NCBI GenBank assembly: GCA_027623555.1
Contig: JAQBSZ010000014.1
Coordinates: 1 to 64,000, forward strand
Source of the DNA: Pseudomonadota bacterium
GTDB taxonomy: Bacteria > Pseudomonadota > Gammaproteobacteria > Pseudomonadales > Pseudohongiellaceae
Length of the DNA stretch: 64,000 nt
Direction: 5' to 3'
The notes below the pieces were generated by a model. It did not search any database. It was not told the DNA's origin and saw nothing but the letters and a program-made list of their open reading frames with translations. The stretch's first letter is position 1. Each line of letters opens with the position of its first letter. Below, in pieces: positions 2 through 3,060 of this stretch. A program made the translations under genes and the position numbers.

Positions 2-991
2 CTTTGCGAGGCGGAGATTATGTACCTTGGCCGCAAAGGCTTCAGAGACGTAAGGCCTAACGAAACATCTAAAGCGTCTCAGTACTACCCAACAAGCAAG
101 TTCATAAAGCTATTTAGCTCATCGCTTTATTCCACCTATGGTGACTTCAGTGACTATGAGCCTCTTAAGTTTGACCGCTTTGAGGCTGCAGACATGCCCT
201 CAGCAACAACGGTCAAAGAATGGCAGCGAATATTGACGCGTTATAACGAGTTCATGCTTGACCATACATGGGCAATGAAGAACCCAAGTAGTCGCAGTCT
301 TAAGGACTTTGCAGGGAGAAGTGGGCGTATTAACAACTATTATCAAAACCTTGTTAATAGACGTATTCCGTTACGGACCAGTACGCTTATTGACGGAGAA
401 GCAATAGTAGAGCCTGACTTCTCTTGTAATCATCTTCGTATGGCTTCGTACATTGTCGGTGAAGAGCTACCTGCCGATCCTTACAGTGACATTGCCAAAG
501 AAACAGGTTTATCCAGAGACAAGATTAAAACAGTTATTACCAAATGCTTTGGTGCAGTAACCGCAGGACGCTCTAAAGGTAAGCTGATAAGGGATGCTAG
601 CTTAGATAAAAGGTCACCAATGGGCGTTGATGACTTTAAAGCCATACTGTCATCCATCGAAGGCAATTATCCTTGGGTAACAAGACGTAAGCTATTCTTT
701 AATGACGTTGGCACGCGCATGCAGTGGCTAGAAGGTGAAATTGCGTTAAAGATGCTGCAATGGGCTACAGAAGAGCAAATACCGTTACTTGCAGTACATG
801 ATGCTTTTGCCGTTAGAGACATCGATGGCTCTAACACCAATAAAAGGATGCTAGAGGTGTGGAAAGAGGTAGTAGAAAGGGCTAAGAACGATAGGTTCTT
901 AGAAGCTACACAGTACACAGTCGCAATAGCTCTTGAGCGTAAGAAGGCTCTTAAGGCGCTGAAGGCTGGAGAGACTCTGCAGGTGCTTTAG
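2..991 (+). CDS. Polymerase-like protein with family-A/T7-type palm motifs (5' partial)
   Basis: The frame is open to the window edge, so the N-terminus probably lies outside; the first in-window ATG is at 20. Numbering from that ATG, three blocks resemble the palm of family-A DNA polymerases and single-subunit RNA polymerases. A motif-A-like DFSCNHLR is at 133-140. A motif-B-like TVITKCFG is at 171-178 after R166/K170. A motif-C-like VHDAF is at 259-263, preceded by a helix with IALKMLQW. The two putative catalytic aspartates would be D133 and D261. HD followed by a small residue and F is closer to T7-type RNA polymerases than to the VHDE of DNA polymerase I, while spacing between motifs A and B is shorter than in either. 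Base and codon use is more AT-rich than downstream, and the gene lies on the 3' side of tRNA-Leu, both fitting a mobile element. The substrate is unknown and the polymerase assignment is inference. Confidence 0.6.
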   Translation, partial: LCEAEIMYLGRKGFRDVRPNETSKASQYYPTSKFIKLFSSSLYSTYGDFSDYEPLKFDRFEAADMPSATTVKEWQRILTRYNEFMLDHTWAMKNPSSRSLKDFAGRSGRINNYYQNLVNRRIPLRTSTLIDGEAIVEPDFSCNHLRMASYIVGEELPADPYSDIAKETGLSRDKIKTVITKCFGAVTAGRSKGKLIRDASLDKRSPMGVDDFKAILSSIEGNYPWVTRRKLFFNDVGTRMQWLEGEIALKMLQWATEEQIPLLAVHDAFAVRDIDGSNTNKRMLEVWKEVVERAKNDRFLEATQYTVAIALERKKALKALKAGETLQVL

Positions 992-1091: not shown

Positions 1092-1976
1092 CTATTGGTT
1101 TAAATGCTTCTCAAACCACGCGAGTCGCGCTGCGTTCGCAATCTTAGCGTTCTCACCACCGAAACCGTGTTTCCCGCCACTTATAACAATCAGTTCCGAC
1201 GGTACGTCAAACTTCTTGAGCGTTGCCAACATTGCATGCGAATGTGTCACATGCACTAATGGATCAGCATCTCCGTGGATCAGCAATACCGGTGGATCGT
1301 TGCTATCAACATGCGTAATTGGCGACATCATCGGAATCATCGCTTCGTCATAATCCAGAGCCGGAAATCGTTGCATTAATTCGTCTTGCTCGACTTCATT
1401 AATTATTCCCTGTGCCTCTGCTTGATCCGATCTGAAATCTACTGGCGGGAAATACGCCACTATCGTAGCTACCGTATTATCCTGCTGCATTACCGGATTG
1501 CGCGCGTCAGCCTTTCCGCTGTCTGAATTTAGACCAACCATGAGAGACAGATGACCGCCTGCACTTCCTCCGGTTAAACCGATTCGATGGCTATCTATCT
1601 GATAGGTGTCGGCATTTGCCTTAATGTGCCTTACGGCCATATCGACATCCGAATATGCGTCGGGCACTTTATATAGCGGGGCACTTCCGTGATAGACAGG
1701 AATCATTGTAAAACCTGCTTCCAACATATCGGCAAATTGGTTTGCTCTAGTTTCTGGCGCGCCCCACGAGGAATACCATCCGCCACTCATCATAAAGACT
1801 ATTGCTGCTCCGTTTGCATTCTCTGGCTGTAAAACATCGTAAGTTAGCGCCATGCCATCTTTTCGCCCATAGATGACATCACTTATGTAAGATACTTCAG
1901 CTGCGTTAACAGCCTCCGTTAGAATCATGCAAAATCCACTTGCGAGTATTAACACTTTTCCTATACTTTTCTTCAT
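1092..1976 (-). CDS. Secreted alpha/beta hydrolase (esterase/lipase-like)
   Basis: The 294-aa protein opens with a signal peptide (MKKSIGKVLILASGF, cleavage likely near NAAE). The body is an alpha/beta-hydrolase of the BD-FAE/carboxylesterase type: oxyanion-region GGW near 65, nucleophile elbow GGSAGG, acid in HGDADPLV, and the catalytic histidine in GGKHGFGG near the C-terminus. It probably hydrolyses small esters or acyl-sugars in the periplasm; the substrate cannot be read from sequence. It stands alone, opposite to the polymerase-like gene and codirectional with the GFA gene. It lies in the AT-richer segment beyond tRNA-Leu, so it may belong to the integrated element. Confidence 0.85.
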   Translation of the reverse strand: MKKSIGKVLILASGFCMILTEAVNAAEVSYISDVIYGRKDGMALTYDVLQPENANGAAIVFMMSGGWYSSWGAPETRANQFADMLEAGFTMIPVYHGSAPLYKVPDAYSDVDMAVRHIKANADTYQIDSHRIGLTGGSAGGHLSLMVGLNSDSGKADARNPVMQQDNTVATIVAYFPPVDFRSDQAEAQGIINEVEQDELMQRFPALDYDEAMIPMMSPITHVDSNDPPVLLIHGDADPLVHVTHSHAMLATLKKFDVPSELIVISGGKHGFGGENAKIANAARLAWFEKHLNQ

Positions 1977-2022: not shown

Positions 2023-2445
2023 CTAATTTTGAGGGTTGTGTTCAAAAGCTGGTAGCTCTTCTCGTACAGCATCCCAGTGCCGAGCTGAAGATTTCCAAAT
2101 ACTAGCGTTAACCGTCACCCATGACGAGTCATCAAGACTCCCTGCTTTTATCAGTTTAATACCTTCCCAACCCTCAAGACCAACTACTACGCTCATGACC
2201 GGCGAACCGCAGTTTTCGCAGAACCCTCTATTCACTGTTGCCCCATCAGTGCCCACAACTGAATAGTATTTAAGCGTTCCTTTGACCGTCAGGCTAGATT
2301 CAGGAATGGCTATGATTGTCGCCTTGCCTGAGCCTGTCGACTTCTGACAGTCTAAGCAATGGCAATGCATTGCTGTGACCACAGCGTCCTGCTCTAGTCC
2401 GTACGATATAGCGCCACACAGGCAGCCTCCAGTATGTGTAGTCAT
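2023..2445 (-). CDS. GFA-family zinc protein (CENP-V/Gfa fold)
   Basis: The 140-aa length and cysteine pattern fit the GFA family: GGCLCG at the N-terminus, CHCLDCQ near 28-34, and CENCGSP near 76. These cysteines bind zinc in family members. The family name comes from a glutathione-dependent formaldehyde-activating enzyme, but most members have no proven reaction, so only the fold is asserted. It is 46 bp upstream of the secreted hydrolase on the same strand and could share a transcript. No membrane segment or signal peptide is seen, so it is probably cytoplasmic. Confidence 0.85.
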   Translation of the reverse strand: MTTHTGGCLCGAISYGLEQDAVVTAMHCHCLDCQKSTGSGKATIIAIPESSLTVKGTLKYYSVVGTDGATVNRGFCENCGSPVMSVVVGLEGWEGIKLIKAGSLDDSSWVTVNASIWKSSARHWDAVREELPAFEHNPQN

Positions 2446-2747
2446 AGCATCTTTCCATTCAGCAGTTTAGATTAGGCTAGAAGGCAACTTTGCTTGTAGT
2501 GCAAAGTAAATAGCGATGAATAGCCCCCAATTTACTGGATCAATTCGATAACAGGCAAGTGAAATCAGCCTATTAAATGTCTGCGCAGGTACGGCAACAA
2601 TCTCCAACGCCATCCAACCACCCCCGCCCTTGTTATGATGCCACCCTTGCTTTTATCTACATTTTTATCTACAAAAGGGTTTCGCGGGAATTAGATAGGG
2701 CTGAAAAGCCTGTATATAAAGCGTCTTTTGGGGAGTTACAGAAGTGA
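2446..2747. other. Gene-free junction between GFA gene and tRNA-Leu
   Basis: No supportable ORF is present. The stretch lies immediately 3' of tRNA-Leu in the tRNA's own orientation, where tRNA-targeting integrative elements carry their attachment region. It contains a close direct repeat at 2651-2673 and is AT-rich near the tRNA. No integrase gene is in the window. Confidence 0.5.
2651..2673. repeat. Paired 11-bp direct repeat TTTTATCTACA near tRNA 3' end
   Basis: TTTTATCTACA occurs at 2651-2661 and again at 2663-2673, a 12-bp period. Two short direct repeats about 75-100 bp from the tRNA 3' end resemble arm-type binding sites of tyrosine integrases at tRNA attachment sites. That role is inferred from position only. 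Confidence 0.45.
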
Positions 2748-2834
2748 TGGTGCCCAGAAGAGGACTTGAACCTCCACGACCTTTCGATCACTAGCACCTG
2801 AAGCTAGCGCGTCTACCAATTCCGCCATCTGGGC
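2748..2834 (-). tRNA. tRNA-Leu (anticodon CAG)
   Basis: Read on the minus strand this is an 87-nt class II tRNA with encoded CCA. The acceptor stem is GCCCAGA with TCTGGGC, the D-loop has GGAATTGGTAGAC, the anticodon stem CTAGC/GCTAG encloses loop TTCAGGT (anticodon CAG), there is a long variable arm, and the T-arm is GGTTCAAGTCC. It diverges from rnr. A tRNA-Leu beside rnr is also found in Pseudomonas. Its 3' end faces the AT-richer lower-coordinate segment, so it is a plausible integration site. Confidence 0.97.
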
Positions 2835-2898: not shown

Positions 2899-3060
2899 TG
2901 CAGTCTACCAATTCCCCCAGCCACCAATCACAGATTGGTGTCGTTCGAGCCGCGCTGAAAGCTGTCGCTTTCAAAACGCTTGCTCTCATCCAGCCACCAA
3001 TCATAGATTGGTGGCGTTCGCCTGCGCGCAAAGCTGTCGCTTCGCATACTACGCTTGGCT
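2899..3060. repeat. Two-copy hairpin-bearing tandem repeat, tRNA-Leu/rnr intergenic
   Basis: Two diverged copies of a roughly 75-80 bp unit occupy this stretch. Each starts with a near-perfect palindrome, CCACCAATCA then AGATTGGTG(G), at 2921-2940 and 2996-3014, followed by CGTTCG. Each then has a second small hairpin around AAAGC-TGTC-GCTTT or AAGC-TGTC-GCTT. The left flank at 2904-2918 repeats a piece of the adjacent tRNA-Leu 5' half (GTCTACCAATTCC), suggesting duplication from the tRNA region. No protein is supported here. Confidence 0.6.

Follow-up and report, generated by a model that had tools for sequence, protein, structure and literature searches.

A compact family-A-like polymerase gene beside tRNA-Leu, probably belonging to an integrative element, in a Pseudohongiellaceae genome

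What kind of enzyme is encoded at the extreme edge of this contig, and what might it do beside a tRNA-Leu gene, is the question raised by the 64,000-nucleotide stretch analyzed here (positions 1 to 64,000 of contig JAQBSZ010000014.1, assembly GCA_027623555.1; the whole stretch is termed the window, and its contig C54). An initial annotation, made from the letters alone, had read the first open reading frame (ORF) as a divergent polymerase on a tRNA-Leu-linked element. The polymerase part of that reading is upheld by a polymerase-like predicted fold and by the catalytic pattern, while the tRNA-linked island is deduced from two unjoined contigs. We propose, with a probability of roughly 0.65, that the gene specifies a compact family-A-type replication polymerase of a tyrosine-integrase element which inserts into the 3′ end of tRNA-Leu.

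Contig C54, whose start is base 1 of the window, begins inside frame 2 to 991 (plus strand), and since no stop precedes the coding sequence there, the gene has lost its 5′ portion; the 329 open codons are estimated to lack approximately 100 N-terminal residues of the product (P0001), judged against a 430-amino-acid paralogue (P0002). Residues are numbered by the frame-2 translation, such that Asp139 and Asp267 are the D133 and D261 of the initial annotation when counted from the ATG at window position 20. The three strings which had suggested a polymerase palm, DFSCNHLR, TVITKCFG and VHDAF, all lie in this frame in that order, and they are not a product of chance, since the catalytic columns are near-invariant in a family alignment of 81 rows. 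This alignment comprises the window protein, 72 ORFs from relatives' loci and eight further proteins (the paralogue, two bacterial and five phage proteins). The loci derive from a scan of the genome_contigs collection, in which 404 candidate stretches yielded 263 relatives; the best 80 of their loci held 81 family ORFs, nine of which (from L040, L049, L052, L065, L069, L075, L081, L082 and L092, L denoting a locus) were left out of the alignments. Gly108, Arg125, Asp139, Tyr161, Arg172 and Lys176 are identical in all 81 rows, Arg109 is retained in 80 (Lys in the remaining row), Asp267 in 80 (with one gap) and His266 in 78. The hairpin Gly-Arg of the window protein was aligned with the TGRLSS element of Pol I in profile alignments which were themselves nonsignificant. 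The spacing of motifs A and B is, as first remarked, unusually short, with 37 residues from Asp139 to Lys176 compared to 53 in Escherichia coli Pol I and 94 in T7 RNA polymerase by textbook numbering.

Structure prediction makes it very probable that the product has a polymerase fold. Arg172 and Lys176 of the fingers RxxxK element fall within a single helix (residues 172 to 184) of the window model, which also has a helix at residues 68 to 85, and the predicted model of the full-length relative L016 places two helices (206 to 222 and 233 to 249) before the hairpin. Among the best fold neighbors are 7a8p and 6ymv, as is also reported in the available text of the study of divPolA2 (PMC11348598). 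The architecture suggested by these models would comprise thumb helices, an Arg-bearing hairpin, a palm with two metal-binding aspartates, small RxxxK fingers and no recognizable nuclease domain; no exonuclease family was found for nine proteins scanned singly or among the 25 (of 36) families listed for 73 members. The L016 model has an N-terminal domain of its own, a part which is missing from the window copy. A winged-helix identity for this domain, which residues 66 to 155 of the model resemble in helix-strand order, is at most a tentative idea, with no helix-turn-helix Pfam family occurring in more than 1 of the 73 members.

The window protein matches phrog_4756, a family of unknown function (440 positions), at an E value of 2.1e-19 over residues 67 to 296. 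AUR84708, the model protein of divPolA2, is a member of the same family, matching phrog_4756 at 1.8e-91 and a profile of mostly bacterial members at 1.3e-30, with a core identity of 16.6% to the window protein. Three full-length relatives match 74, 151 and 241 phage records, including Vibrio phage ICP1 and 115 Rheinheimera phages; the matches listed are mostly annotated as hypothetical, and a Pseudomonas phage M1 protein is annotated as a DNA polymerase. The ICP1 hypothetical protein (L013 7380-8684, plus strand; ORF100 in HQ641347.1) is itself a phrog_4756 member (E 6.8e-126). Within the class, phrog_4756 has matches in 5 of 369 genomes. A search of 390 genomes of the order with the window protein plus its paralogue gave matches in 27 (their own included), and among 58 nearer genomes the window protein by itself hit a single one, namely its own. 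Scans of viral_contigs yielded no relative, although the phage collection has many, and neither the window protein nor the paralogue was matched in the plasmid collection. Solved structures searched by sequence gave one chance-level match (Rad50, E 0.38), NCBIfam returned no recurrent family, and a literature search on phrog_4756, with most subscription journals outside its coverage, found no paper.

The neighborhoods of the relatives were then considered. Among the best 80 of the 263 relatives' loci, several of which are short, 62 contain an integrase, 48 a tRNA or transfer-messenger RNA (tmRNA) gene, and 32 an integrase within 600 nt of one. For the 50 loci of at least 15 kb these values are 45 (integrase) and 36 (tRNA or tmRNA), and for 20 control stretches (17 kb each, from ten genomes mostly other than those of the 50 loci) they are 0 and 2, a comparison which is not fully independent because the integrase profile was grown on the same loci. 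A Pfam scan independent of that profile covered 142 of 148 upstream and 146 of 152 downstream ORFs (up to two per side; six per side, from L069, L079, L082 or L092, were skipped as presumed near-copies), and assigned Phage_integrase to 14 and 23 and Resolvase to 5 and 8 of them, respectively. The 25 families listed for the nearest neighbors, of 146 and 191 in all, include no D5-type helicase. A tmRNA gene is present on the stretches of L046, L050 and L184, and the L183 member is located near a predicted tRNA-Sec. Two family ORFs occur on one stretch in L033 and in L193, while L079 and L092 represent two family loci approximately 22 kb apart on one Glaciecola contig.

These surroundings bear on the alternative which survives best, namely, that the enzyme is a repair or second-strand-synthesis polymerase which fills gaps or converts incoming single-stranded DNA without starting replication. 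As far as the available texts go, repair is among the published suggestions for divPolA2, Barbaviruses with divPolA2 also encode a regular PolB (PMC11348598), and second-strand synthesis has been proposed for PolA-SSB enzymes (PMC10061031). The recurrence of integrase-bearing stretches among the relatives speaks for a role in the element and not for repair in general, and we regard this alternative as unlikely.

With regard to the proposed element itself, the 25-nt presumed attachment-site core has two exact copies in the assembly, C54:2747-2771 and C52:101396-101420, and 98 nt past the latter lies a tyrosine integrase gene (PF00589, E 3e-9) directed towards the C52 end. The orientation of the C52 end and the C54 start is compatible with a single island broken by assembly, and we infer that the two contigs carry its two ends. 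The locus was compared with the rnr loci of the genus (rnr was matched in 31 genomes, its own included, and 30 loci were fetched, 29 of them from other genomes, with flanks of up to 1.5 kb). The tRNA-Leu(CAG) gene is present at 20 of these 29 loci. Neither the hydrolase nor the GFA protein of the presumed island (Table 1) has a tblastn match at any of them; the C52 flank (M56 peptidase, BlaI) and the C52 integrase likewise have no match there, which neither proves nor disproves the C52-side boundary. A short palindromic CCACCAATC...GATTGGTG element in two copies was spotted by eye beside the tRNA gene (window 2925-3060).

Table 1. Features of the window that bear on the polymerase gene and the presumed island
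Feature	Coordinates	Strand	Evidence or remark
Compact family-A-like polymerase gene (TV-Pol / divPolA2 / phrog_4756 type)	2..991	+	ORF, translation, phrog_4756 match, predicted fold; 5′ end missing
SGRINNYYQNL, hairpin region with conserved Gly-Arg (position of Pol I TGRLSS..PNLQN)	320..352	+	Gly108 81/81, Arg109 80/81
Motif A, EPDFSCNHLR	410..439	+	Catalytic Asp139 at 416-418, Asp in 81/81 rows
Motif B / fingers RxxxK	515..556	+	Arg172 and Lys176, each 81/81; Gly184 in the column taken as that of Tyr639/Tyr766
Motif C, LAVHDAFA	788..811	+	Catalytic Asp267 at 800-802, 80/81 with one gap; His 78/81
Alpha/beta hydrolase (BD-FAE), between polymerase gene and tRNA	1092..1976	-	PF20434 E 1.3e-38; possible island cargo
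GFA-domain protein	2023..2445	-	PF04828 E 1e-24; possible island cargo
25-nt presumed attachment-site core (tRNA-Leu(CAG) 3′ end)	2747..2771		Exact whole-assembly search
tRNA-Leu(CAG), presumed integration target	2748..2834	-	ARAGORN

In the mechanism which we envisage, the integrase would excise the element, the polymerase would then prime and/or extend DNA on the excised or an incoming single-stranded form, and the element would reinsert. The window enzyme would be expected to be catalytically active, to use deoxynucleoside triphosphates (dNTPs) and to act in replication. By analogy with known enzymes, a part in element replication which includes priming is slightly favored; self-priming by the window enzyme is suggested by CCPol, whose own priming depends on the partner protein MP.

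A number of observations weigh against this proposal. The contig stops short of the 5′ end of the gene, and no Pfam family comes near the cut-off for the window protein; PF00940 (RNA_pol) is weak in 8 of 73 relatives (best E 0.0061) and has no match at E 1 for the window protein. PF00476 likewise matches neither the window protein nor eight relatives at E 1, nor is it among the 25 (of 36) families listed for 73 members, and the window protein, though not classed as a PF00476 member, may work like a family-A DNA polymerase. When compared by hhalign with 25 Pol I sequences, the family gave an E value of 0.13 (reversed controls, 0.076 and 0.2), and with 93 family rows 0.011 over 202 columns versus 0.088 reversed. 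Against eight phage RNA polymerases, the motif C block alone of the family profile scores (E 1.9e-5, probability 78; reversed family, 0.62). These scores, therefore, support a link to RNA polymerase motif C by sequence and do not establish kinship to Pol I. Foldseek returned no match at an E value of 0.001 or better for the window model, with query TM-scores of 0.25 to 0.39, and kinship to polymerases leans on the predicted fold more than on sequence. Of 50,697 phage records, one is matched by the window protein itself, which has no match in viral_contigs. As for the island, no assembly sequence joins C52 and C54, the middle is missing from the assembly, no empty site was found at the 29 rnr loci, and neither a helicase nor a primase partner could be assigned to the window gene, an OB-fold partner not having been searched for.

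The motif C score also bears on a second alternative, under which the protein would be an RNA-making enzyme, either a single-subunit RNA polymerase that transcribes element genes or an RNA primase that starts replication. The initial annotation had judged motifs A and C to be RNA polymerase-like; motif C agrees with this by its profile score, and in motif A the Cys of DFSCNHLR is not family-wide, Gly being commonest at motif A+3 (41 of 81 rows, followed by Ala in 17) and Leu at A+4 (46 rows). The Phe that had been assigned to the sugar-selecting Tyr position of T7-type enzymes is displaced by one residue, Phe183 being Lys+7. The matching column is Lys+8, which we take to be the site of Tyr639 in T7 RNA polymerase and Tyr766 in Pol I; its occupation by Asn in 71 of 81 rows and by Gly184 in the window protein argues against an RNA polymerase. 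Motif A+5, presumably the column of Glu710 in Pol I and Gly542 in T7 RNA polymerase, is His in 70 of 81 rows (His144 in the window protein), and these two columns separate the family from the textbook enzymes. The Gln at position 241 of the window protein, conserved in 55 of 81 rows and in our view a Pol I-like feature, also argues against this alternative. CCPol-MP, a tested enzyme, needs dNTPs according to the available text (PMC7581432). An RNA-synthesizing enzyme thus appears rather improbable.

Returning to the family-A-type replication polymerase, the window protein belongs to a sub-branch recovered from thirteen stretches of twelve genomes of the order, of which twelve stretches carry one member each; these twelve and the paralogue gave the 13 sequences aligned to the window protein, while the thirteenth stretch, L193, holds two ORFs which score as main-family members and were excluded from the sub-branch profile. 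Sub-branch members share the signature GR[LIF]...(F/Y)Q[NSQ], and all 13 have Ala at motif A+3, where the window protein has Cys, and Asn at A+4. The sub-branch profile matches the main family at 1e-42 (reversed control, 0.26), and 7 of the 12 stretches (L181 to L185, L187 and L191) also carry an integrase. The window protein and its paralogue pair with support of 100/99 in a tree rooted for drawing only, in which both are long-branched.

The sub-branch also furnishes evidence on whether the copy in the window is a nonfunctional leftover at a decayed island edge. The contig edge truncates the frame, and dead copies exist, since a family member in a genome of the same order (L192 7723-8949, plus strand) has both catalytic aspartates replaced and is, judging from these substitutions, probably inactive. 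Nevertheless, 329 codons are open with all catalytic residues kept, and the nearest sub-branch relatives in other genomes, L185 (47% identical over the core) and L184 (46%), have intact motifs, which makes a dead copy very unlikely.

On contig C4 of the same genome the paralogue is preceded, in order, by a tRNA-Leu(TAA) gene, an integrase and a SHOCT-domain protein. Upstream of it, two direct repeats (L003 6726-6755 and 6815-6844) share 21 nt exactly, 89 nt apart. Iterons as a family feature were rejected, given that upstream regions outscored each of their 10 shuffled versions in 10 of 77 cases, with approximately 7 expected, and control regions did so in 15 of 149. A C-terminal Mg-chelatase-like fragment (PF13335, PF01078; L003 4146-4655, plus strand) near the paralogue is perhaps a gene cut by another insertion.

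The least probable alternative, a defense polymerase carried as island cargo against invading phages, draws on restriction-modification families among the upstream neighbors (ResIII 4/142, N6_Mtase 3/142, Methylase_S 3/142), an AbiEii-like AAA family among the downstream ones (2/146) and the mention of defense as a possible role of PolA-SSB enzymes in the available text (PMC10061031), but tailed phages themselves carry the family, one member of which matches 241 phage records.

A wider interpretation, doubtful when its parts are taken jointly, would see in these proteins a separate mobile-element polymerase branch in gammaproteobacteria-like genomes of one order. Its members would be family-A counterparts of pipolins, that is, integrase elements at tRNA or tmRNA genes which replicate after excision with their own primer-independent enzyme, and the phage divPolA2 and island enzymes would form one family exchanged between phages and islands. 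Sugar discrimination relies on a Glu/Tyr pair in DNA polymerases and a Gly/Tyr pair in RNA polymerases; here it would proceed via His at motif A+5 and Asn or Gly at Lys+8, possibly allowing mixed RNA/DNA primers. The analysis turns phrog_4756, a family of unknown function which includes an ICP1 protein, into a testable polymerase family, links divPolA2 of phages to chromosomal islands at tRNA genes and provides residue-level predictions on sugar selection and priming. Should such islands depend on this enzyme for their replication, the persistence and movement of many short integrase islands, which going by record titles belong largely to marine genera, would become easier to explain.

Compact family-A-type polymerases are of a kind already described in mobile elements and phages, and the window protein lies in a divergent branch of them. 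TV-Pol was defined as a minimal family-A core of 400 to 600 amino acids with a thumb of two antiparallel helices, an absolutely conserved hairpin Arg, two Asp residues, fingers RxxxK and no nuclease, located in mobile elements with an integrase, resolvase or transposase, a subset being linked to a D5-like helicase (Iyer, Abhiman and Aravind 2008, PMC2579912). The present family has the hairpin Arg (80 of 81 rows), the two palm aspartates and the fingers RxxxK; it shares the mobile-element neighborhood, both in the relatives and through the tRNA 3′-end copy beside the integrase on C52 (unjoined to C54), as well as several host genera, the relatives' hosts including Loktanella, Roseovarius and Sulfitobacter. 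The sequence comparison with TV-Pol covers MAP_030 alone, a likely TV-Pol of Microcystis phage LMM01 picked by its transposase neighbors and motifs, the likeness otherwise being to the published description; MAP_030 gave an hhalign E value of 0.045 (probability 1.2, 74 columns), was missed by the family profile within a limit of E 1 and falls in another PHROG.

divPolA2, whose available description is from phage genomes with AUR84708 as model protein, is in a paper which uses the term TV-Pol once in its main text, in the Background (Yutin et al. 2024, PMC11348598). The phrog_4756 match, the active-looking palm, the lack of a visible 3′-5′ exonuclease and the N-terminal domain seen in L016 are points of likeness, whereas the window member is chromosomal, beside a tRNA gene, with an integrase at the presumed other end. 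CCPol-MP of SCCmec, for which polymerase and, with MP, primase activity have been shown biochemically with a requirement for dNTPs (Bebel 2020, PMC7581432), and the PolA-SSB enzymes are likened here by description and not by sequence, as mobile-element family-A polymerases. PolA-SSB enzymes with a full polymerase domain are described, in the available text, as retaining part or all of the 3′-5′ exonuclease domain and pairing with an OB-fold protein (Rice 2023, PMC10061031), both distinguishing features; no OB-fold partner was found here, none having been searched for. Pipolins, finally, are reported in the available text to be integrative elements with their own polymerase, often with tyrosine recombinases, those of E. 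coli residing in a Leu-tRNA gene (PMC7385651, which we take to be Flament-Simon et al. 2020). The proposed element resembles them in being integrative, in encoding its own polymerase and in its Leu-tRNA site; it differs in that pipolins encode the family-B polymerase piPolB, whereas the window gene is of the family-A type.
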